Assembly: GCA_025963715.1 (NCBI GenBank)
Contig: JAOQAG010000036.1
Span: forward strand, 1-45,914
Length of the DNA: 45,914 nucleotides
Direction: 5' to 3'
Source of the DNA: Bacteroidota bacterium
Lineage (GTDB): Bacteria; Bacteroidota; Bacteroidia; 2-12-FULL-35-15
The stretch's first letter is position 1; every line of letters starts with the position of its first letter. The translations under genes and the position numbers were made by a program. Below the pieces are notes generated by a model. The model saw only the letters and a list, made by a program, of their open reading frames with translations, was not told where the DNA came from and made no database searches. Positions 732 to 45,914 of this stretch are shown here, one piece after another.

Positions 732-3170
732 ATGAAACGTTTTCTCTTTTTGATCCTGCTGTTACCGGCGGTTTTTTCTTTTGCACAAACGGCAAAGAAA
801 AAAACGACTGCGCAACGCGTGCAACAAGCGCCGAAAATAGATGGCGTGCTGGATGATGGCGTGTGGGAAAACGTTCCGGTTGCTACCGATTTTGTTCAGA
901 ATGCGCCGCATCCGGGGATTCCAGCCGCAAAAAGATCAGAAGTGAAAATTATTTACGATGACGTGGCGATCTATGTGGGGGCGCAGTTATACGACGATCA
1001 TCCCGATAGTATTTTGCATGAGCTGAGCCAGCGCGACAATGAAGCAAATGACGACATGTTTGGTGTTTTTTTTGACACGTACAACGACGATATCAATGCT
1101 TACGGTTTTTTTGTTACAGCGGCAGGCGTTCAGCTTGATGGCCGCTATTCCTCGCAGGGACAGGATCTGAACTGGAATGCAGTGTGGCAAAGCCAGGTAA
1201 GGATCAATGACAAAGGCTGGGCGGTTGAATTTAAAATTCCGTATTCCGCCATTCGTTTTCCAAAAGTAGCCGATCAGAATTTTGGTTTTAACATCATCCG
1301 TAAGGTAAGGCGTACGCGCGAAGATCAGTTTTGGAATGAGCTGAAACCCGATGTGGACGGATTGGTGAACCAGAGCGGTGACCTGGAAGGAATTTCCAAT
1401 ATCAAATCGCCGGTGCGTTTATCGGTTACGCCGTATGTGGCGGCTTACATGGATAATTTTCCGTATAGCGATCAGGCAAAAAATAGTAATTCATTTTCAT
1501 TCAATGGCGGCATGGATATTAAATACGGCATCAACGAAAGTTTTACACTGGACATGACGCTGGTGCCGGATTTTGGACAAGTGCAAAGCGATAACCGTGT
1601 ATTGAACTTATCGCCGTTTGAGATCCGTTACGATGAGAACCGGCAGTTTTTTACGGAAGGCACCGAGCTGTTCTCGAAAGGCGGATTGTTTTATTCGCGG
1701 CGGATTGGAGGAGCACCGGTAAATGCAAATGCACCGTATGATGAATTAAAACCCGGCGAATATGTAAAAACCGATCCAGGCACCACGCAGCTGATCAATG
1801 CCACCAAATTTTCGGGACGTACCACAGGTAATTTAGGGATCGGTGTTTTTAATGCAACATCGCTGGCGTCGTATGGCGTAATCTCCGATTCGCTTGGTAA
1901 TACGCGCAGGGTAATGACGCAGCCGCTTACCAATTACAATGTGATCGTGCTGGACCAGGCGTTGAAAAACAATTCGTATGTAAGCCTTGTGAACACCAAC
2001 GTAACGCGTGAAGGAAAAACATACGATGCCAATGTAACCGGTACGGAATTTAAATTTGCAAACAAAAAAAACAACTACGCTTTTAATGGAAATGCGGCGC
2101 TCACACAATTATTTTATGCAGATTCGTTAAAGCCCGTGCTGGGCTATTTGTATTACCTGAATGCAGGAAAGATCAGCGGAAATTTTCAGTACAATGTAAA
2201 TGCAACAGTAAAAAGCGACAAGTACGATCCCAACGATTTGGGTATTTCATTCATCAACAACACCATCGAGTTTTATGCAAATGCGTATTACAATATTTAC
2301 AAGCCTTTCTGGAAAGTGAATAATCTGTATACAAATATCGGTACCGGTTATTCACGTTTGTTCAGCCCCGACTTTTTGTGGAATTATAATATTTACGGAT
2401 CAATAAATACCACGTTCTCAAAAAACTTTTTATCTACCGGAGGAGGATTTAATTTCGAACCGATTGTAACGTATGATCATTGGGAGCCGCGTGTAAAAGG
2501 CCGCTATTATGCGTTCCCGCGCGATTATATGGGAAATTACTGGATCTCCAGCGATTACCGCAAACGTTTTGCATTGGATGTAAGCCTTAATTATCGCTAT
2601 TTTTATGAGAACAACCGGTATAATTTTACATTCGAACTGGATCCGCGCTTTCGGGTAAATAATAAATTATCCTTTGTTTACAGCTTTAACAGGACGTATC
2701 AAAACGATGACATTGGTTTTGTGAATTACGATGAATCCACCGGTGTGATCACTTTTGGAAGAAGGGAAGTGGTAACGCTGACTAATCAGCTGGATGCAAA
2801 TTATATATTCACGAATAAAATGTCGCTGTCGCTGCGTGCCCGCCATTACTGGTCGAAAGCCGACTACAAACAATATTATACACTAAGTGATAAAGGATTA
2901 TTGTTTGATGATAATCAGTATACCGGAAATTCAAATATTAATTTTAACGCTTTCAATATTGATCTCGTTTATCGCTGGCAATTCTCGCCGGGCAGCGAGA
3001 TCAGCTTTGTATGGAAAAATGCAATTTACACGCAGGGCGATGTGATCATTGAGCATTACCGCAACGATGTGGATGAAACATTCCGTTCGCCCAAATCCAA
3101 CAGCTTCTCCATAAAGATCCTGTATTACCTGGATTATGCGATGCTGCAAAAAATGAAAAAAAGAAAATAG
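732..3170 (+). CDS. DUF5916 outer-membrane barrel protein with CBM9-like N-terminal domain
   Basis: An 812-residue exported protein. Residues 1-19 form a signal peptide ending FAQ, so the mature protein would start with Gln. Residues about 30-225 resemble the carbohydrate-binding family 9-like domain that opens DUF5916 proteins (KIDGVLDDGVWENVP at the start, then alternating beta strands). The remainder is a long, aromatic-rich series of strands typical of the DUF5916 outer-membrane beta-barrel. Family members are common in Bacteroidota, and their substrate is generally unknown; a role in binding or uptake of carbohydrate is inference only. The ATG at 732 is well placed for the signal peptide. 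The stop codon directly abuts a dispersed repeat (3169-3202). The gene is probably monocistronic, because repeat-filled gaps lie on both sides. Confidence 0.85.
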   Translation: MKRFLFLILLLPAVFSFAQTAKKKTTAQRVQQAPKIDGVLDDGVWENVPVATDFVQNAPHPGIPAAKRSEVKIIYDDVAIYVGAQLYDDHPDSILHELSQRDNEANDDMFGVFFDTYNDDINAYGFFVTAAGVQLDGRYSSQGQDLNWNAVWQSQVRINDKGWAVEFKIPYSAIRFPKVADQNFGFNIIRKVRRTREDQFWNELKPDVDGLVNQSGDLEGISNIKSPVRLSVTPYVAAYMDNFPYSDQAKNSNSFSFNGGMDIKYGINESFTLDMTLVPDFGQVQSDNRVLNLSPFEIRYDENRQFFTEGTELFSKGGLFYSRRIGGAPVNANAPYDELKPGEYVKTDPGTTQLINATKFSGRTTGNLGIGVFNATSLASYGVISDSLGNTRRVMTQPLTNYNVIVLDQALKNNSYVSLVNTNVTREGKTYDANVTGTEFKFANKKNNYAFNGNAALTQLFYADSLKPVLGYLYYLNAGKISGNFQYNVNATVKSDKYDPNDLGISFINNTIEFYANAYYNIYKPFWKVNNLYTNIGTGYSRLFSPDFLWNYNIYGSINTTFSKNFLSTGGGFNFEPIVTYDHWEPRVKGRYYAFPRDYMGNYWISSDYRKRFALDVSLNYRYFYENNRYNFTFELDPRFRVNNKLSFVYSFNRTYQNDDIGFVNYDESTGVITFGRREVVTLTNQLDANYIFTNKMSLSLRARHYWSKADYKQYYTLSDKGLLFDDNQYTGNSNINFNAFNIDLVYRWQFSPGSEISFVWKNAIYTQGDVIIEHYRNDVDETFRSPKSNSFSIKILYYLDYAMLQKMKKRK

Positions 3171-3502
3171 TTCAAAGTTTAAAGTTCAAAAGTTTAAAGT
3201 TTGCTGTGCGCAGATGCTGTGTTTTATTTGTAACCAATCATTATAAGAACATGTCATCCCGGGCTTGACCCGGGATCTTATGAATGTTTGCAGGATCTAA
3301 AAAATGGTTTTTAATTAATAGATCCCGGGTCAAGTCTGGGATGACAATTTAATTTTAAAATTTTACTTTTTAAGAACGGTATCACACGCAGATTAGTAGA
3401 TTCGTACACATTAGTATTTAGTAGATACACCGATTCGTAGTTTTGTTCCTGTTCGTTATCTGTACAGCAAACTTTAAACTTTTGAACTTTAAACTTTGAA
3501 CT
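3169..3502. repeat. Intergenic mirror region: perfect 34-nt GTTCAAAG-family arms around a CCCGGG hairpin
   Basis: The arms 3169-3202 and 3469-3502 are perfect reverse complements (34 nt) of TTCAAAGTTTAAAG-type sequence. The left arm includes the last two bases of the DUF5916 stop codon. Inside lie a REP-like pair (3253-3278 and 3320-3345), a copy of family K (about 3385-3428) and an inverted copy of family E (3431-3465). No gene is supported in 3171-3582. Confidence 0.85.
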
Positions 3503-3582
3503 ATCTGTTGTTAGTAATTTCCCTTCCCACCCTTCATTCCTGCACCTTCCTTCCTTAATTTCGTTATAAGAAAAATTTCGCA

Positions 3583-6324
3583 ATGTTCAAACGAATCCTA
3601 TTCTGGTTTTTTATACTGCTGTGCATCAGCGGCGGCGTGTATTGGTTTGTATACACGAAAGAAAGCAGGATGCCTGTAGGAGATGGGATTAACGCGATCC
3701 CGGCAAATGCCGCACTTATTTTTGAAAGCAAGCAGGCGAAAAATACCTGGAAAAAATTATCCCAAACCAACATCATGTGGGAGGAATTGCTGGGAACGGA
3801 AACATTTGCAAAACTCAACCTGCAGGCACGTTACGTGGATTCTGTAATTGAACTGGATCCCTTCGTTGCTCCATTACCGGACGATCATTCGGTATTTATT
3901 TCGGTGCATCCCGCTACTGCGAATACATTTGAATTTTTATTTGTGTACAGCCTTCCCAATCTTACCTATCAGTCGGGGCTGCAAACGTTTTTAGAAAAAT
4001 TAAATAACGGACGCGCACCCGTTGCTGTAAATTATGAAGACGAGCAGATCCAAACCATTTCTCCCGCCGGTAAAAATCCTTTGTCGCTTTCATTTGTAAA
4101 TGGCACGCTCATCATGAGCATGCAGCACACACTGGTGGAAGATGCCATTCGCCAGTTAAAATCAAACACTTCTCTGGCAAAAGATCGCAGTTTCAGCAAA
4201 GTATTAACTACGGCAGGAAAAAAAGTGGATGCCAATGTGTATGTCAATTACAAAATGTTCCCACAGATCCTGAGCTCCTTTGTTTTTCCAACGTTTAAGA
4301 ACGATGTAAATGAGCTGGCACATTTTGCGGATTGTTCCGGCTGGGACATTGCATTAAAACCCAATTCAGTAATGTTGAGCGGTTTCACCTATTCAAACGA
4401 TTCCCTGAAAAGTAATTTCCTGAACATTTTCAACAAACAAAAAGCGCAAACAATTGAATTAACAAAAGTGATCCCTGCAAAAACCGCATTGATGGTATTT
4501 TACGGGATCAGCAATACAAAAACATTCCACGAAGATTATTTAACGTATTTAAAAGCAAAAGACCGTTTGCAAAATTATAACCGCTTTCGCGATACAGTAA
4601 ATGCAAAATATGGGATTGATGTGGAACCTGCGATGCTTCACTGGATCGATAATGAAATGGCGCTGGTAGTAACCGAACCTGCTGCTGCCAATTACAGCGA
4701 CAATGCATTTGCCGTAATGCATTCCGGTAACATTGAAGATGCGCTTGGTACACTCAATGGATTATCGGATAACGTAAATAAAACGAACGAGGAAAAAACA
4801 GATACAAGCAATTTTCGCGGACACACGATCGGTCGTTTGAACATTCCGGATGTATTGCCGCAACTGTTCGGCTGGCAATTTAATAAGATCAGGAAATGCT
4901 ATTATACTTCCATTGCCGATTACATTGTTTTTGGGAATAGTAGCGAAGCACTTCAAAATTTTATTACCGCGTATGAGAACAATAAAACACTGGCAAATGA
5001 TAAAAATTACAGCGCTTTTGCTGAAAATATTTCTACGGAATCCAATGTGTATATTTATTCTGCAATTGCCAGTTCAACTGCTTTTTACAGCAATTTTGTA
5101 ACGGAGCCGCTGGTAAAAGACATGGAAAAAAAATCGGACCTGATCCATAAATTTGAAGCAGCTGGCATTCAGTTTACTTTTAACAATAAATTATTTTACA
5201 GCAATATCTATTTAAAATACAACCCGGTGTACAAGCAGGAAACCGGTACCTTATGGGAAACAAAGCTGGACACTACCGTAAGTTCTAAACCGTACCTGGT
5301 TATCAATCACAATACCAAAGCAAAAGAAGTGCTGGTGCAGGACGATGCCAATAAAATTTACCTGATCAGCAATACCGGAAAAATTATCTGGACAAAACAA
5401 CTGGATGAAAAGATCATGAGTGATGTGATCCAGCTGGATGTGCTGAAAAATAACAAGCTGCAAATGCTGTTCAATACCAGTACTACCATTTACATGTATG
5501 ATCGTAATGGAAATGATATGAAAGGCTTTCCAATCAAATTAAAATCACCGGCTACTAATCAGTTATCAGTCGTGGATTATGAAAATAACCGCGATTACCG
5601 CATCTTCATTGCCTGCGAAAATAAAAAAATACTTTGCTACAAAGCCAATGGCGAATTAGTAGATGGTTTCCAGTTTGATAAAACAGCAAATCCCGTTTAT
5701 TTACCTGTGCAATATTTCAGTGCCAGCAATAAAGATCATTTGTGTGCGATCGATGTAAAAGGAAAAATTTATATCCTCGACCGCAAAGGCGAAACCCGCA
5801 TCAGGCTCAAAGAACAAATGGCGCAGGGCATCCGTAATTTTTACATCGAATCCGGTAAAGATTATTCCAAATCATACATCGTTGCTTCCGATACACTTGG
5901 AAATGTGATTAAGATCAGCCTTACCGGCGATAAAGAAAAAATGAAATTCCAGGATTTCGAAACATCACCTTATTTCGAATACAAGGATATTAATAACGAC
6001 AAAACCTGTGAATACATCTTTTTATCGCGCACGGAATTAAAAGTATTTAATGCCGATAAATCCCTGCTGTTCCGTTATGAGTTCAAAGATAAAATAACAC
6101 AATTGCCGCAATACTTCCTGTTCCCGGATGGTACAGGCAAGCTGGGTATTGTTTCAGATGCTGCTAACGAATTGTATTTATTCAACGATAACGGCTCCCT
6201 GTATGATTCATTTCCACTGAAAGGAAAAACCGCTTTTAGTATCGGCGATCTTAATAATGAAGGCATTTACAACCTTGTAACCGGGAGCGCCGATAACAGC
6301 ATTTACGTGTATCAGCTGCAATAG
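3583..6324 (+). CDS. Membrane-anchored protein with DUF3352-like region and C-terminal beta-propeller
   Basis: A 913-residue protein with one N-terminal membrane segment (about residues 5-25) and no obvious cleavage site, so it is probably anchored with the rest in the periplasm. Residues about 35-550 resemble the loosely conserved DUF3352-type region of Bacteroidota. Residues about 555-913 are repeated units of the kind DANKIYLISNTGKIIWT and KKILCYKANGELVDGF, typical of PQQ/FG-GAP-like propeller blades, probably six or seven. No catalytic motif is visible. Propellers of this kind are usually binding or scaffold domains. The ATG at 3583 directly precedes the membrane segment. The stop codon abuts a repeat arm at 6325. 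The function is unknown; the domain assignment is by eye. Confidence 0.75.
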   Translation: MFKRILFWFFILLCISGGVYWFVYTKESRMPVGDGINAIPANAALIFESKQAKNTWKKLSQTNIMWEELLGTETFAKLNLQARYVDSVIELDPFVAPLPDDHSVFISVHPATANTFEFLFVYSLPNLTYQSGLQTFLEKLNNGRAPVAVNYEDEQIQTISPAGKNPLSLSFVNGTLIMSMQHTLVEDAIRQLKSNTSLAKDRSFSKVLTTAGKKVDANVYVNYKMFPQILSSFVFPTFKNDVNELAHFADCSGWDIALKPNSVMLSGFTYSNDSLKSNFLNIFNKQKAQTIELTKVIPAKTALMVFYGISNTKTFHEDYLTYLKAKDRLQNYNRFRDTVNAKYGIDVEPAMLHWIDNEMALVVTEPAAANYSDNAFAVMHSGNIEDALGTLNGLSDNVNKTNEEKTDTSNFRGHTIGRLNIPDVLPQLFGWQFNKIRKCYYTSIADYIVFGNSSEALQNFITAYENNKTLANDKNYSAFAENISTESNVYIYSAIASSTAFYSNFVTEPLVKDMEKKSDLIHKFEAAGIQFTFNNKLFYSNIYLKYNPVYKQETGTLWETKLDTTVSSKPYLVINHNTKAKEVLVQDDANKIYLISNTGKIIWTKQLDEKIMSDVIQLDVLKNNKLQMLFNTSTTIYMYDRNGNDMKGFPIKLKSPATNQLSVVDYENNRDYRIFIACENKKILCYKANGELVDGFQFDKTANPVYLPVQYFSASNKDHLCAIDVKGKIYILDRKGETRIRLKEQMAQGIRNFYIESGKDYSKSYIVASDTLGNVIKISLTGDKEKMKFQDFETSPYFEYKDINNDKTCEYIFLSRTELKVFNADKSLLFRYEFKDKITQLPQYFLFPDGTGKLGIVSDAANELYLFNDNGSLYDSFPLKGKTAFSIGDLNNEGIYNLVTGSADNSIYVYQLQ

Positions 6325-13213: not shown

Positions 13214-13515
13214 GCCACAGATTCACGGATTAAAAAGTAAAAAAGAATTTTTTGCGGATTTCTCTCAATCACTTCATGATAATTTGTGTAATAATTGGTA
13301 CTGTTGTAGGGAAATGTTTTTTTTTACAATATTCATAAATAATACTGTCATCCCGGGCTGGACCCGGGATCTCATGAATGGTAGCAGCATTTAATTGGCG
13401 GATCCCGGGTCCAGCCCGGGATGACAGTTCAGGAAAGTATTTCTGTTTCCATAGTAAGATGTTCTGCAAACATGACTTAATAATTTTGTATTAAAAAAAT
13501 CTGTGAATCTGTGGC
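13214..13515. repeat. Family C element interrupted by a MITE-like insertion
   Basis: The left half 13214-13296 and right half 13478-13515 join to give a complete family C element like the one 48 bases upstream. The insertion lies between them at 13297-13477. Joining the halves restores GTGTAATAATTTTGTATT, closely like the intact copies at 13053-13165 and 6398-6511. Confidence 0.8.
13297..13477. mobile_element. MITE-like element, copy 2 (complete, 181 bp, with target duplication)
   Basis: It is flanked by an 8-bp direct repeat TAATAATT (13289-13296 and 13478-13485). The left end is GGTACTGTTGTAG; the right end read inward is AGTCATGTTTGCAG, an imperfect inverted repeat. The core is a 25-nt inverted repeat (13347-13371 and 13401-13425). 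The left arm (TTTTTTTACAAT) and right arm (AGTATTTCTGTTTCCAT) match copy 1. It carries no coding sequence, so it would need a transposase from elsewhere. Confidence 0.75.
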
Positions 13516-14479: not shown

Positions 14480-14888
14480 GTTCATTAGTTTACCAGTTCA
14501 TTGGTTCACTGGTTTGCTGTGTGAGTGGGAGTAAATACTTCGTTGCTGTTGGGACAAATAGTACTTTGTTGTTGGGCGTCCCGGGACGTCTTATTTAACA
14601 AGGCATCCCGCCTGTTTTAAATTCCATGTCAGGTTTTTTCCTTACAATCATTCTCAGGAATCCAATCAATATATTAAACTGTCATCCCGTGCTTGACACG
14701 GGATCTCACGAATGTTTGCAGCGCATGCTTGTTGTTCTTAATAAAAAAATTCTATAACATTCCGGCATAACACTATAAAAAAATTCACTCCGGATTAAGC
14801 TTCATACGTCCACCACAGCACACACAACACTCATTCAGCACGGGCTTCGCCACCAATGAACCAGTAAACGAATAAACCAATGAACCAA
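14480..14888. repeat. Intergenic mirror region between convergent genes
   Basis: The outer arms 14480-14515 and 14855-14888 are imperfect inverted copies of a GTTCATTGGTTCACTGGTTT-type word. The right arm abuts the stop of the minus-strand gene. Between them are a CCCGGG palindrome near 14577-14587 and a single REP-like hairpin (14681-14706). No gene is supported in 14468-14889. Confidence 0.65.
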
Positions 14889-27152: not shown

Positions 27153-27185
27153 AGTTTAAAGTTCAAAGTTTAAAGTTCAAAGTTC
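27153..27185. repeat. Family B repeat, solo copy
   Basis: 33 nt of AGTTTAAAGTTCAAAG-type sequence, 48 bases upstream of the LpxD-paralogue start. It belongs to the same family as 3169-3202, 31358-31391 and 43806-43838. Confidence 0.8.
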
Positions 27186-30918: not shown

Positions 30919-31569
30919 TTATTTATAATCCTCAATGCTGATCCATTTGTTGCAAAACGGATATTCATATTCCTGCTGATTGGATGCAACAACGATCAAA
31001 CGATCTGCCGCATGTGCATTTACCAGCTGCTGATACCAGTTGATCGCATTTTTATCCAGGTTGGAAGTAGGTTCATCCAATAATAAAAGCGGCGTATCGG
31101 CAAGGATCGCAAGTGCAAGGCGCACACGTTGTTTCATTCCCGATGAATAATATTTTAATTGTTTGTTTTTTGCTTTTTCCAGTTGGGTGATCTCAATGAT
31201 CTGCTTTGTAGTTAAGCTTTCGCGGAAAGGTTTGAACTGGGCCTGGAACTCAATGGATTCAGTCAGTGTAAATTCTTCCAGCAGATCAAGATAAGGAGCG
31301 GCATAGCTTAAATAGTGAAATCTGTTTTCCTCATCAATAAGCAAAGATTCGGCAATAGAACTTTGAACTTTTGAACTTTGAACTTTGAACTCTATTTGTC
31401 CTTCCGAAGCAATCAAATTTCCGGCAATTACCTGTAATAATGTAGATTTTCCGGAACCATTCGAGCCTAAAATAACATAGTTGTTTTCGCTGGTCAATTC
31501 ATAATTTATCTTACGAAAGATCCATTCGTAGTTGTAGCGTTTTCCTATGTTGTTTAAAGTGATTTGCAT
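30919..31569 (-). CDS. ABC transporter ATP-binding protein with embedded repeat
   Basis: A 216-residue ATPase subunit. Walker A is GSNGSGKST (residues about 35-43), the signature is YYSSGMKQR, and Walker B is LLLLDEPTS followed by the D-loop SNLD and a switch region. No permease gene is adjacent, so its partner lies elsewhere. Residues about 60-71 (EFKVQSSKVQSS) are encoded by a copy of the dispersed GTTCAAAG-type repeat that otherwise occurs between genes (31358-31391). This lies in the variable stretch between Walker A and the Q-loop. The ATG at 31569 is immediately preceded by another repeat arm. It is the first gene of the four-gene operon. Confidence 0.9.
   Translation of the reverse strand: MQITLNNIGKRYNYEWIFRKINYELTSENNYVILGSNGSGKSTLLQVIAGNLIASEGQIEFKVQSSKVQSSIAESLLIDEENRFHYLSYAAPYLDLLEEFTLTESIEFQAQFKPFRESLTTKQIIEITQLEKAKNKQLKYYSSGMKQRVRLALAILADTPLLLLDEPTSNLDKNAINWYQQLVNAHAADRLIVVASNQQEYEYPFCNKWISIEDYK
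31358..31391. repeat. Family B repeat inside the ABC ATPase coding region
   Basis: 34 nt of GAACTTTGAACTTTTGAAC-type sequence, the same family as the intergenic copies, translated in frame as EFKVQSSKVQSS at residues about 60-71 of the ATPase. Confidence 0.88.
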
Positions 31570-31570
31570 G

Positions 31571-31859
31571 GTACGGATAACGAACAGGAACGAATTTTAC
31601 GAATCTGTGACCGTTCTGAATTTATTTTGTGGTTTTATGCAGAACACACCCCTAGCCCCTCCTCTCAAGAGGGGAACCGAAGCATTCTGCACCATTGATG
31701 AGTATATTATTATTTTATGATTCTTTAAAAACTATAATTTTTAAATTCAGCAGGATCAATTCCCCTCTTGAGAGGGGCCAGGGGTGTGTTCCGCTTATAC
31801 ATTCTATTTAGTACGTCAAGCACAGATTCGTAAAATTCGTTCCTGTTCGCTATCCGTAC
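31571..31859. repeat. Two nested inverted pairs (family E outside, family D inside)
   Basis: The family E arms are 31571-31610 and 31821-31859 (GTACGGATAACGAACAGG type). The family D arms are 31644-31676 and 31760-31789 (ACACACCCCTAGCCCC type). The shell fills the whole gap: the left arm starts one base after the ABC ATPase start codon, and the right arm provides the first base of the lpxA stop codon. Confidence 0.88.
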
Positions 31860-32650
31860 TAAGAGATCCCCCGCATGATTCCATCCTTCGAATTACGAAT
31901 GAAATCCACGATCTGTTGTTTCTCCGGCGATTCCGGTGCTTCCTGCTCAATGATCGCCACCGCATTGGTTACGTTGTGTCCTTTTACATAAAGCGTTCTG
32001 TAAATATCCTCAATGTTTAAAATGGACTGGTCGCTAAAACCGCGTCGGCGCAAGCCAACCGAGTTAACGCCCACATATTGTAATGGTTCGCGTGCTGCTT
32101 TTGTAAACGGTGGTACGTTTTTACGAACGCCTGTAAGCCCCGATATAAAAGCATGAGCGCCGATGCGTACAAATTGCCCGACAGCGGTGCCGCCTTCAAT
32201 GATCACCCAGTCTTCAATATCCACGTGGCCTGCAAGGTTTACGCTGTTTGCGATGATAATGTTATTTCCTAAAATACAATCGTGTGCAATATGTACATAC
32301 GCCATCAGCAGGCAGTTATTGCCAATCACTGTTTTCATCTTATCCACCGTACCGCGGTTAATGGTCACACATTCGCGGATGGTGGTATTATCACCGATCT
32401 CCACAATGGATGCTTCGCCTTTAAATTTAAGATCCTGCGGAATGGCGGAGATCACAGCACCCGGAAAAATTTTACAATTTTTTCCAATGCGTGCACCCGG
32501 AAAAATGGTCACATTCGGCCCGATCCAGGTGCCTTCACCGATCGTTACATTTTCATAGATCGTGGAAAATGGCTCTATGGTTACATTGTCCGCGATATCA
32601 GCATCCGGATGAACGTAACAATTAGGATGTATGAGCGAGTGCTGGTTCAT
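31859..32650 (-). CDS. lpxA: Acyl-ACP--UDP-N-acetylglucosamine O-acyltransferase
   Basis: A 263-residue beta-helix enzyme catalysing the first step of lipid A synthesis. Hexapeptide repeats run from about residue 10 to 180, with the catalytic histidine in AYVHIAHDCILGNN. The C-terminal helical domain (NVTNAVAIIEQEAPESPEKQ) is intact, and the length is normal. The ATG at 32650 overlaps the 3' end of lpxC-fabZ by 29 bases, which suggests translational coupling. The TAG stop codon (31859-31861) lies at the end of a dispersed repeat arm that fills the following gap. Confidence 0.95.
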   Translation of the reverse strand: MNQHSLIHPNCYVHPDADIADNVTIEPFSTIYENVTIGEGTWIGPNVTIFPGARIGKNCKIFPGAVISAIPQDLKFKGEASIVEIGDNTTIRECVTINRGTVDKMKTVIGNNCLLMAYVHIAHDCILGNNIIIANSVNLAGHVDIEDWVIIEGGTAVGQFVRIGAHAFISGLTGVRKNVPPFTKAAREPLQYVGVNSVGLRRRGFSDQSILNIEDIYRTLYVKGHNVTNAVAIIEQEAPESPEKQQIVDFIRNSKDGIMRGIS

Positions 32651-34040
32651 TGTTTTTTACTTTTACGATTTGTGCCATCATTTCCGCTTCCATAACGGGT
32701 TTATTATTTACATACGCAGTGCCTTTCATGTGGCAGATCCCTCTGCGGATCGGTGTTACCAGTCGCAGGTCAAATACTACGGTATCGCCCGGAATTACCT
32801 GCTGGCGGAATTTTACACCGTCGATCTTGATAAAATAGGTTAGATAATTTTCAGGATCCGGAACGGTTTTCAACACCAGGATCCCGCCTGCCTGCGCCAT
32901 TGCTTCGATCAACAAAACGCCCGGCATTACCGGTTGTTCCGGGAAGTGTCCTTTAAAGAACTCTTCGTTCATCGTAACATTTTTTACACCGATCACGCTT
33001 TCTTTTGTAAGCTCCATGATCTTGTCGATCAACAGGAAAGGCTGGCGGTGCGGCAATATTTTTTGAATGTCGTAAATGTTCAACACCGGTTCTTTGTTGA
33101 GGTCGAAATTTTTTACGTCTTTCTTTTTTGATTTGATCAGCTCTTTTATTTTTTTCGCAAAAGCTACATTTCCGGCATGACCGGGACGTGCAGCCAACAC
33201 ATGCATTTTCAGCGGTGTTCCCACCAATGCAAGATCGCCGATGATGTCCAGCAATTTGTGACGGGCAGGCTCATTAAAATAATGCAGCGTAGTATTGTTC
33301 AGCACTCCTTTGCCTTTAATTTCAACGTCTTCACGATGAAATACTTTTTGCAAATGCGCGATCTGTTCTTTCGAAACTTCTTTATCCACCAGCACGATCG
33401 CGTTATTCAGGTCGCCGCCTTTAATTAAATTATGCGCCAGTAATGCTTCCAGTTCGTGTAAAAACACAAAAGTGCGGCACATGGCAATCTCCGATTTAAA
33501 TTCGCCGATGTGGTACATGGAAGCATGTTGCGTTCCCAATACATCGGAATTGTAATCCACCATTACCGTTGCGCGGTAAGCATCCTGTGGCACCGCCAGC
33601 ATTTCCACTTTTTTGATCGGATCTTCGTAGGTCAGATTTTCAGTCAGCTCAAAATAAATACGCTCTGCATTTTGTTCTATAGCGCCTGTTTTTTCAAGGA
33701 TTGCCACAAAGGGCATAGAGCTGCCATCCATGATCGGCATTTCAGGGCCGTCGAGCTGGATCAGTACATTATCGATCTCGAGTCCTACCAGTGCGGCAAG
33801 TACGTGCTCGGTAGTGTGTACTTTGGCACCGTTTTGCTCCAGTGTGGTTCCGCGCGACGTATCCACAACATTGTCCACATCCGCATCTATAATTGGGTTT
33901 CCCGGCATGTCTACGCGTTGGAATTTATATCCGTGATTTTCCGGGGCGGGCATAAAAGTTAAATTTACCTGCTTTCCGGTATGTAATCCAACTCCTGAAA
34001 TGGAGACTGGTGCTTTTAATGTTCGTTGTTTTACACTCAT
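32622..34040 (-). CDS. lpxC-fabZ: Bifunctional LpxC deacetylase / FabZ dehydratase
   Basis: A 472-residue fusion typical of Bacteroidota. Residues about 1-300 are the zinc-dependent LpxC deacetylase, the committed step of lipid A synthesis, with His79 in HTTEHVLAAL and the second zinc site in HKLLDIIGDLALVG. Residues about 320-472 are FabZ, the 3-hydroxyacyl-ACP dehydratase, with the active-site His in ILPHRQPFLLID and Glu in LLIEAMAQAGG. Fusion links use of 3-hydroxyacyl chains for lipid A and for fatty acids. It starts 6 bases after lpxD and overlaps lpxA, so the three genes form one operon. Confidence 0.96.
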   Translation of the reverse strand: MSVKQRTLKAPVSISGVGLHTGKQVNLTFMPAPENHGYKFQRVDMPGNPIIDADVDNVVDTSRGTTLEQNGAKVHTTEHVLAALVGLEIDNVLIQLDGPEMPIMDGSSMPFVAILEKTGAIEQNAERIYFELTENLTYEDPIKKVEMLAVPQDAYRATVMVDYNSDVLGTQHASMYHIGEFKSEIAMCRTFVFLHELEALLAHNLIKGGDLNNAIVLVDKEVSKEQIAHLQKVFHREDVEIKGKGVLNNTTLHYFNEPARHKLLDIIGDLALVGTPLKMHVLAARPGHAGNVAFAKKIKELIKSKKKDVKNFDLNKEPVLNIYDIQKILPHRQPFLLIDKIMELTKESVIGVKNVTMNEEFFKGHFPEQPVMPGVLLIEAMAQAGGILVLKTVPDPENYLTYFIKIDGVKFRQQVIPGDTVVFDLRLVTPIRRGICHMKGTAYVNNKPVMEAEMMAQIVKVKNNEPALAHTS

Positions 34041-42583: not shown

Positions 42584-43801
42584 ATGAAAACATCTAAGGA
42601 ATTATTGGCTTCACTTACGCAAACGGCGCTTATGCCGCAGGAAGAAATGCTGGAAGTGGGCCGTAAAAAGGGTAAATTGTTCATTGGGATTCCAAAAGAG
42701 ATCTCTTTCCAGGAAAACCGTGTTGCCCTGGTTCCGGATGCAGTAGCCTTGCTGGTAAACAACGGGCACCGTGTGGTGGTGGAAACCAACGCCGGTAAAA
42801 TGGCTAATTTTCAGGACCATGATTACAGCGAAGCGGGTGCACAGATCGTGTACAGCGCCGAAGATGTGTTTAAAGCAGATATTATTTTAAAAGTAGCGCC
42901 GCCATCTCCGCAGGAAATGGAAATGATGCAGCAGAAACAAACGCTGATCTCTGCGTTGCAGCTAACCGTTCAGCCCGAAGATTTTTTAAAGCAATTAATG
43001 TCCAAAAAGATCACTGCTATTGCCTTCGACTGGATCAAGGACCGGGATGGTATTTACAGCGTGATCCGCTCCATGGGCGAGATTGCCGGTGGAACTTCCA
43101 TTTTGATCGCGGCTGAATATTTAAGCAATGCCAACAACGGACAAGGTGCTATTTTAGGCGGTATTTCCGGAATCTCGCCTACCGAAGTTGTGATTTTAGG
43201 AGCCGGAACAGTAGGGGAGTTTGCCACCCGTGCGGCATTGGGATTAGGCGCTTCCGTAAAAGTATTTGATAATTCCATTTATAAATTAAGACGTTTGCAA
43301 AGCGATATCGGTACACGGATCTTTACTTCCGTGATCCAGCCGCGTGTACTGGCCAAACATTTAAAAACTGCCGATGTGGTGATTGGTGCTATCCGTGCAC
43401 AAAACGGACGTACGCCTTGTGTGGTAACGGAAGCGATGGTGAGTGAAATGAAAGTTGGCTCGGTGATCATTGATGTGAGCATCGATCAGGGCGGTTGTTT
43501 CGAAACATCGGAAGTGACCAATCATTCCAAACCGGTATTCCGTAAACACGGCGTGATCCATTATTGTGTTCCGAACATTGCTTCGCGTGTTTCGCGCACG
43601 GCATCGTATGCACTCAGTACTATTTTTGCTCCTATTTTGTTGAACATCGGCGAAGAAGGTGGTGTGGAAAATATGCTGCGCAGGGACGAAGGTGTGCGCA
43701 ACGGGATTTATGTATACAACGGAGTGTTAACTAACCAGGTGCTGGGCGAAATGTTCAAGCTGCCGTACAAGGATATTAATTTGTTTATGGCGGGAATGTA
43801 A
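42584..43801 (+). CDS. ald: Alanine dehydrogenase
   Basis: A 405-residue NAD-dependent enzyme interconverting alanine and pyruvate plus ammonia. The N-terminal part (GIPKEISFQENRVALVPDAV) and the Rossmann motif VILGAGTVGEFATRAALGLG are typical of the alanine dehydrogenase/transhydrogenase family. The length and the C-terminal RDEGVRNGIYVYNGVLTNQ are like those of other bacteroidotal members. The ATG at 42584 is about 20 bases from a possible promoter -7 element (42548-42555). A repeat arm starts five bases after the stop. Confidence 0.92.
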   Translation: MKTSKELLASLTQTALMPQEEMLEVGRKKGKLFIGIPKEISFQENRVALVPDAVALLVNNGHRVVVETNAGKMANFQDHDYSEAGAQIVYSAEDVFKADIILKVAPPSPQEMEMMQQKQTLISALQLTVQPEDFLKQLMSKKITAIAFDWIKDRDGIYSVIRSMGEIAGGTSILIAAEYLSNANNGQGAILGGISGISPTEVVILGAGTVGEFATRAALGLGASVKVFDNSIYKLRRLQSDIGTRIFTSVIQPRVLAKHLKTADVVIGAIRAQNGRTPCVVTEAMVSEMKVGSVIIDVSIDQGGCFETSEVTNHSKPVFRKHGVIHYCVPNIASRVSRTASYALSTIFAPILLNIGEEGGVENMLRRDEGVRNGIYVYNGVLTNQVLGEMFKLPYKDINLFMAGM

Positions 43802-43805
43802 AATA

Positions 43806-44174
43806 AGTTCAAAGTTTAAAGTTCAAAAGTTTAAAGTTAGCTGTGTAGGCTGTACGGATAACGCCCGCCTGAACGATTCGGGCAGGAACAGGAACGAAAC
43901 TGCGAATCTGTATGTGAGTTGTGTTTAATGCGAAGTATGATCTTCAATTATACTGTCATCCCGGGCGCCGACCCGGGATCTCATGAATGTTAGCAGAATG
44001 TGATTGTTACAGTTCTTAATTAACAGATCCCGTGTCAGGCACGGGATGACGATCCGAAAAGATGAATTGATTTTTAATAAAGACAGCAAACATTTAAACG
44101 TTACAACTTTTTAACCTTACAACTTCTTTTACACACAGCACAACTTTAAACTTTTGAACTTTAAACTTTGAACT
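43806..44174. repeat. Intergenic mirror region with 33-nt family B arms
   Basis: The arms 43806-43838 and 44142-44174 are perfect reverse complements of each other and the same sequence as the arms around 3169-3502. Inside are an interrupted family E copy (43852-43910) and a REP-like pair (43955-43980 and 44026-44050). No gene is supported in 43802-44183. Confidence 0.88.
43863..43885. repeat. 23-nt palindromic insert inside a family E repeat
   Basis: GCCCG and CGGGC flank an 11-base centre. Removing these 23 bases restores the GTACGGATAACGAACAGGAAC of the other family E copies exactly. Confidence 0.7.
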
Positions 44175-44183
44175 AAAAAAAAT

Positions 44184-44600
44184 ATGGCGATTCCCGGTAA
44201 AAATGCTGATTTATACAGAAGATTAAGACTTTACGGATTTGGATTTGTATTGGGATTATTGGTCGTTAGTTTTATTTACAAAGGCAAAGGCTGCCAGTTG
44301 CCTAACTCTGCAAAAGTGGAAGAGCTGGCGTTCCAGAAAATGGAATATACCGAGCATGCATTGTGCCGTATGAAATGCCGAAGCATTACCGAAGCGGAGA
44401 TCAGGCAGGTATTAAAAAGCGGGAAAGTAAATTACGATAAAAGTCATGTACATGATAAGCCTTATCCGACTTATGCTATTGAAGGCCCAACCGGCGATGG
44501 AAAAACATTGCGCCTTGTGATTGCTGATGTAGATACCATTTCGAGGCTGGTAACTACCATTGACCTTAAAATGGAAACGGATAGCTGCGATTGCAAATAG
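44184..44600 (+). CDS. DUF4258 protein with N-terminal membrane segment
   Basis: A 138-residue protein. Residues about 14-33 form one hydrophobic segment, and residues about 50-135 match DUF4258 (YTEHALCRMKCRSITEAEIR, then LRLVIADVDTISRLVTTIDL). DUF4258 proteins are related in fold to small RelE-like/BrnT-like toxins, but here the domain is tethered and no antitoxin gene is adjacent. Similar membrane-tethered forms lie close to ald in other Bacteroidota. The ATG at 44184 lies nine bases after a repeat arm. The C-terminus is Cys-rich (DSCDCK). Confidence 0.8.
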   Translation: MAIPGKNADLYRRLRLYGFGFVLGLLVVSFIYKGKGCQLPNSAKVEELAFQKMEYTEHALCRMKCRSITEAEIRQVLKSGKVNYDKSHVHDKPYPTYAIEGPTGDGKTLRLVIADVDTISRLVTTIDLKMETDSCDCK

Positions 44601-45817: not shown

Positions 45818-45914
45818 GGTTATGTTGCAGAATATTATTGTTTATGGAAACAGAAATACTTTCTTAAGCTGTCATCCCGGGCTTGACCCGGGATCTGTTA
45901 AATACTTGCAGCGC
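45818..45914. mobile_element. MITE-like element, copy 3 (cut by window end)
   Basis: It begins GGTTATGTTGCAGAATATTA, then ATGGAAACAGAAATACT, then the core half hairpin 45871-45896, and continues GTTAAATACTTGCAGCGC to the end of the window. It is in the opposite orientation to copies 1 and 2. Confidence 0.65.

Follow-up and report, generated by a model that had tools for sequence, protein, structure and literature searches.

The window analyzed here, the whole 45,914-nt stretch of contig JAOQAG010000036.1, belongs to a Bacteroidota assembly of 4.91 Mb in 51 contigs. It contains an ABC ATPase gene without internal stop codons, which adjoins lpxA (31859-32650) and lpxC/fabZ (32622-34040), both named from NCBIfam models above their cut-offs. 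The 216-residue product matches the Pfam family ABC_tran with 82.6 bits. The features that enter the analysis, by window position, are as follows.

30919-31569, minus strand: ABC ATPase gene, 216 aa, Pfam ABC_tran.
31303-31407, minus strand: variable loop of residues 55-89, which runs from SEG, a motif that follows Walker A, up to the AAPY motif (coordinates calculated from residue numbers).
31358-31391, minus strand: in-gene copy of the heptamer element, with units of 7-7-8-7 nt plus GTTC, encoding EFKVQSSKVQSS.
3170-3201, plus strand: intergenic copy, starting at the last stop-codon base of ORF 732-3170 and leading into GCTGTG.
3470-3501, minus strand: inverted copy at the far end of the intergenic region that also contains 3170-3201, before ORF 3583-6324.
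27154-27185, plus strand: intergenic variant without the 8-nt unit.
43807-43838, plus strand: intergenic copy just after ORF 42584-43801.
44142-44173, minus strand: inverted partner of 43807-43838, just before ORF 44184-44600.
17-76, 3234-3293, 13328-13387, 14662-14721, 43937-43996 and 45852-45911: copies of the GTCATCCCGGGC...GACCCGGGATCT element.

The 34 nt at 31358-31391 lie within codons 60-71, read AGTTCAAAGTTCAAAGTTCAAAAGTTCAAAGTTC on the gene strand, and are organized there as GTTCAAA GTTCAAA GTTCAAAA GTTCAAA GTTC. A first-pass annotation had reported a 34-nt dispersed repeat translated in frame at this site, and that observation is sound: the segment is read through without an internal stop and belongs to a dispersed family, but the family consists of 32/33-nt arrays of GTTCAAA/GTTTAAA heptamers rather than of a plain repeat. 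With its 7-nt tandem units, the element is a heptanucleotide tandem repeat in which one unit has 8 nt. The surrounding loop, from SEG to AAPY, has 35 codons in the window's gene, compared to 25 in the shortest members of the genus. Alignment to solved ABC proteins, with ABCA3 (7w01) as the best match, positions the loop after the conserved glycine that follows the Walker A helix and before the Q-loop region. The site was first described as lying between Walker A and the Q-loop, but the usual Q-loop glutamine is replaced or absent in this family of ABC ATPases. Further, the Pro-Tyr pair at residues 92-93 is invariant across 46 aligned orthologue rows. The loop itself, presumably a beta-hairpin turn at this position, is hydrophilic and variable within the genus.

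The gene copy belongs to a large family that is almost confined to its own genome. In particular, the 32-mer GTTCAAAGTTYAAAGTTCAAAAGTTYAAAGTT, searched with C or T allowed at two sites plus one mismatch, has 102 copies in the window's genome versus 0 for the reversed pattern; in 35 other genomes of the genus it has one copy in G031 and none in the remaining 34. The gene copy (C47:31359-31390) matches the 32-mer without mismatch. A related 26-mer with up to 3 mismatches has two overlapping matches in the window, both at the gene site, versus 0 in 100 shuffles, and an 18-mer with up to 1 mismatch has 230 matches in the genome (0 for its reversed pattern), which are not 230 arrays because array units overlap. 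Moreover, a permissive array pattern, run on 80 stretches plus the window (1.646 Mb), identified 88 arrays, 47 of them full length with the gene copy included, and the 7-7-8 unit order of the gene copy is the commonest one (38 of 88). Across the same 1.646 Mb, there are 33 tandem arrays at period 7 and 0 to 4 at each other period within 4-13, while periods 14 and 15 yield 33 and 28 arrays, as 7-7 and 7-8 units would give; a simulated control contained 0 arrays at period 7. Together, the shuffles, the reversed patterns, the simulated control and the 102 copies rule out a chance origin of the repeat.

The consensus of the 47 full-length copies, the gene copy included, is AGTTCAAAGTTTAAAGTTCAAAAGTTTAAAGTT followed by TGCTGTG; its column purity is not evidence, because the search pattern itself fixes most of the positions. 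The gene copy is identical to this consensus at 31 of 33 nt, and the two differing sites are both T to C changes that turn an in-frame consensus TAA into CAA. Only 3 of the 47 copies, again counting the gene copy, are open in the gene's frame. Of the 102 places where the 32-mer occurs, 100 were listed, 79 of them without mismatch; among these 79, counted by eye, only the gene copy has C at both sites, and a copy at C39 with one mismatch, also among the places listed, likewise has C at both. Selection may have favored the stop-free form of the gene copy, which would itself derive, through recombination or template switching, from a copy elsewhere in the genome.

The intergenic copies hold a fixed orientation toward genes. 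Four of the copies first reported between genes were found as described, and the fifth, given at 27153, is the variant that lacks the 8-nt unit. Among the 88 arrays of the permissive search, 78 were placed between genes, 6 lie in ORFs, and 4 were set aside as having no gene on one side; for 73 of the 78, the GTTC end is the one nearer a gene, at a median distance of 6.5 nt compared to 281 nt on the other side. The GTATCAR and AAAGTCA heptamers of four other genomes show the same gene-end orientation at 13 sites versus 3, where the sites comprise all 14 non-loop GTATCAR sites of G035 and G011 and part of the AAAGTCA sites of G003 and G017. The available part of PMC4692102 describes a similar orientation rule for the G-rich heptamers of Xanthomonas and Nostoc.

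Neighboring arrays within 1.5 kb form 15 convergent pairs, as opposed to 2 divergent pairs and 3 on the same strand; GCTGTG follows the array in many copies, and the pair at 3151-3207 and 3464-3520 is 88% complementary over 57 nt. All three characteristics would suit a MITE-like element with terminal inverted repeats, of which the gene copy would be a solo end left behind by transposition. The gene copy, however, has no GCTGTG after the array and continues with CTATTGCC instead, no target duplication flanks it (by eye, for that copy only), and the heptamers of other species follow the same gene-end orientation, making such an origin quite improbable. In folding calculations, the gene copy was no better than its shuffles (z = +0.54), two intergenic copies formed a weak hairpin (z = -2.30 and -2.65), and no inverted repeat was found in 31340-31410.

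The intergenic regions at 3170-3501 and 43807-44173 each have a heptamer array at both ends, the two arrays being inverted relative to each other and each adjoining its flanking gene; other dispersed repeats lie between them. The dispersed GTCATCCCGGGC...GACCCGGGATCT element has six copies in the window, all in register, and a separate CCACAGATTCACAGATT repeat family is present as well.

A search of 99 relatives for the ATPase matched in all of them, some weakly and probably not orthologous, and a second collection added 80 loci; the resulting alignment has 110 rows, with several species included twice, once per collection. The extra residues face a gap in each of the 57 orthologue rows from outside the genus, though these are not 57 independent lineages because many are Pontibacter. 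Within the genus, the proteins range from 206 to 240 aa and the SEG-to-AAPY stretch from 25 to 36 residues in 32 genes, including the 35 of the window; several members carry other heptamers and some have no heptamer signal. An insertion limited to this lineage, which the first-pass annotation had named as the supporting outcome, is seen with respect to the rows outside the genus, but extra length also occurs elsewhere inside it, and no close relative with an empty site was found among the relatives examined. The longest loop insert in the genus (L311, from G030) extends about 31 residues beyond the 25-residue form and has no period-7 run.

The same loop contains different heptamers in different species: AAAGTCA in G017, GAAGACR in G008, GAATCMA in G031, GTATCAR in G035, GTAGCAR with GTATCAA in G003, a degenerate AAAGCTG in G016, and GTTCAAA or its degenerate forms in G000, G011, G028, G032 and G006. 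For G035 and G003 there is no net insertion, because their heptameric loops have the basic 25 residues. When lags were tested on 32 genes of the genus, 14 had their strongest lag-7 window in the loop, with 6 ties, where the loop accounts for 10% of the windows. Nine of the 32 loops (the near-identical G032 and G006 both among them) reached 11/14 at lag 7, versus 0-1 at lags 4-6 and 8-13, and 8 did so at lag 14, a multiple of 7; outside the loop, 3 of 32 genes reached 11. None of the 57 outgroup genes reached 11 in the loop at lag 7, and 3 did at lag 6. The test left out G020, G021 and G023 (weak matches only) and G030 (matched in two pieces), and took L082 and L083 as G034 and G015, as assigned from contig positions. 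Further, no strict period-7 array was found in the 57 outgroup loci (365 kb, many Pontibacter), compared to three in 23 closest-relative loci (142 kb), two of which are in the ATPase loop.

These measurements bear on whether the likeness could have arisen in the protein, by convergence on a loop that favors K, Q, S, N and E and whose AT-rich codon use would look heptameric. The hydrophilic and variable character of the loop is consistent with that idea. Yet composition would not explain signals at lags 7 and 14 that exceed those at neighboring lags and are lacking in the outgroup genes, or a gene copy that nearly equals the family consensus; the lag test rejects compositional convergence, and a convergent origin is extremely improbable.

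Exact 18-mers for six motifs were counted in 36 genomes of the genus. The motif of a loop recurs elsewhere in its owner's genome in 6 of 10 pairs (G000, G028, G017, G035, G008 and G031), where 2.1 are expected (P = 0.007); the pairs were assembled after the loops had been read, and the AAAGCTG-like loop of G016, a motif without a genome search, was excluded from the count. The four failing pairs are G011, G032 and G006, in whose genomes no exact GTTCAAA 18-mer occurs, and G003, whose sole GTAGCAR match is the loop itself. GAAGACR occurs in 1 of the 36 genomes, that of its owner G008, in the loop plus one other array; the reversed GAAGACR control also gives 2 in G008, because the unit reads nearly the same backwards, and the reversed GTTCAAA control gives 2 in G015 and 1 in G027. 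The exact GAAGACG and AGAATCC 18-mers were too strict and were widened, the exact GAAGACG 18-mer having yielded 0 in 36 genomes and missed even the loop. In a tree of MutS and ATPase sequences stripped of the linker and the loop, the sisters G008 (GAAGACR) and G031 (GAATCMA) differ in heptamer (support 99), and the group of G003, G035 and G011 (support 96) has two kinds of heptamer; the root of this tree is unreliable, because two outgroup rows with ABC sequence only fell inside the genus. Several independent changes to the loop across the genus are likely, because grouped and sister species carry different heptamers.

Part of the segment may be older, because the loops of G032 and G006, which are nearly identical to each other, carry EFNIQSS from a degenerate GTTCAA tract, in genomes where neither the 32-mer nor an exact GTTCAAA 18-mer occurs. 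Orthologues with the same residues but without the repeat family had been named in the first-pass annotation as evidence against an insertion, and EFNIQSS in these two genomes is in part such a case. It is consistent with local replication slippage, by which a GTTCAA-like tract would have expanded in place and its likeness to intergenic arrays would reflect a genus-wide period-7 bias. Degenerate GTTCAA tracts without exact family 18-mers occupy the same loop in G011 as well as in G032 and G006, period 7 is the commonest short tandem period in three genomes sampled, and the loop heptamer of G003 has no other exact match in its genome. Against slippage, the architecture of the gene copy is the commonest one in a family of 102 copies, whose full length it also has, and loop motifs match their owners' genomes above expectation; an 8-nt unit at the same place would not be expected from slippage alone, though a one-base gain in an A run is easy. 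Expansion in place is an unlikely sole origin. The first suggestion, that the repeat was inserted or copied into coding sequence, is mostly right in light of a 102-copy family almost confined to one genome, but an older heptamer tract may have preceded the gene copy, which would make the event a replacement or expansion and not one clean insertion.

Arrays are under-represented in coding DNA. Of the 33 strict arrays in the window's genome, only 8 fall within ORFs of 100 aa or more, though such ORFs make up 86% of the DNA, and with a stricter overlap 7 arrays lie in ORFs and 26 outside. By eye, the plausible in-ORF arrays are those in the ATPase loop, a MutS linker, two C-terminal tails and a signal peptide; the remaining three are at or near ORF starts, and the true start may be downstream. 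In the probable signal peptide (L233, 10959-10982), CTTGCTT heptamers encode the hydrophobic core (LLVSCFLLLASPAHA) from a pyrimidine-rich strand. In stretches of four other genomes, picked for holding GTATCAR or AAAGTCA arrays, 8 of 24 arrays are in ORFs. Four of these occupy the start of an ORF that closely follows the stop of another gene. Of the remaining four, two share one position in an amidohydrolase of G035 and G011, one is in a ketoacyl synthase of G011 and one in a PcrA/UvrD helicase of G017. Compared to solved relatives, the amidohydrolase has about 6 extra residues at the array, the helicase has about 55 inserted residues, which include a second dispersed repeat, and the ketoacyl synthase has no net gain. 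MutS linkers, available from 30 of 36 genus genomes, are 35-62 residues long, and 12 of the 30 contain a period-7 run (by a looser threshold and at lag 7 only) with differing motifs.

Two of these proteins carry further repeats. The helicase insert of G017 (L310, about 3021-3130) also contains GTCACCCTGAGCGGAGTCGAAGGG in frame, whose 15-nt core is found in five other loci, of G035 and G011. The MutS linker of G031 (L279) has two in-frame stretches of a CTCCCCTTTAGGGGCTGGGGG-type palindrome, which resemble the TTCCCCTCTTGAGAGGGG repeats of the window (31756-31789), and one similar CTCCCCTTTAGGGGCTGGGGG-type copy was seen in 400 kb of the G031 genome.

Overall, the in-gene segment is probably a copy of a species-specific dispersed heptamer repeat that entered, or replaced, the ATPase loop after Walker A and is translated there. 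Heptamer arrays would arise or be copied all over the genome in this genus, with each species amplifying its own set; selection would then remove most of them from coding DNA, and in-frame arrays would last only in places where the protein can accommodate extra residues and the strand that is read has no stop, as in the ATPase loop, the MutS linker, and other loops and tails. The wider pattern is stronger than could be seen in the first-pass annotation. A phase-variation switch is not favored, because the frame would be broken if one heptamer were gained or lost; no internal stop occurs among the genus matches listed. A bolder extension, possible but on balance doubtful, is that a dedicated process writes species-specific heptamers outward from gene ends and also into tolerant protein loops, as a continuing source of peptides. 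If so, noncoding repeats would supply VQSSKVQSS, VSSIKYQ, KVKSQKS and ESRIKNQ at fixed sites in conserved proteins.

By description, the closest precedent appears to be the Rickettsia palindromic elements (RPE). Like RPEs, the window's repeat is read in frame in conserved genes, the ABC ATPase and others; unlike these palindromes of about 100-150 bp, the heptamer arrays are about 20-35 nt long (34 nt for the gene copy), the gene copy folds no better than shuffled sequence, and species use different heptamers. The accessible parts of PMC3767692 and of PMC10969869, the latter citing Ogata 2000 and 2002, describe RPEs as dispersed repeats in frame inside unrelated housekeeping genes, with different families near the same place in orthologues.

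A second comparison is with the TAACTGA direct repeats of Beggiatoaceae, cyanobacteria and some Bacteroidetes, which, in the available portion of PMC4679880, are mostly intergenic, with some inside ORFs on the stop-free strand or overlapping ORF ends. The present arrays share with them, as far as that portion goes, the heptamer units, the mostly intergenic location and the occasional placement in ORFs. The TAACTGA repeats are described there as one motif across phyla, with in-ORF cases mostly at the protein periphery; here, in contrast, there are many motifs, a set per species, recurring at one internal loop of a conserved protein. The heptamers GGGAATC and GGGGAYT of Xanthomonas and Nostoc are G-rich and can form G-quadruplexes according to the available part of PMC4692102, which reports no recurrent in-frame site for them, whereas the units here are A-rich. 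The same part of that paper states that little had been written on the abundance of heptamer repeats in bacteria. A search of the open-licence literature yielded no account of heptamers being inserted recurrently at a single protein loop, which is weak evidence of absence.

The ATPase thus provides a natural series: related species have acquired different repeats in a single loop of the same conserved enzyme. This series allows direct comparisons that bear on how protein insertions originate and on the abundance of heptamer repeats in bacteria. Any mechanism must also account for a second clue, the fixed orientation in which the arrays stand at gene ends. At sites that tolerate them, new protein segments appear to be supplied continually by noncoding repeat DNA.
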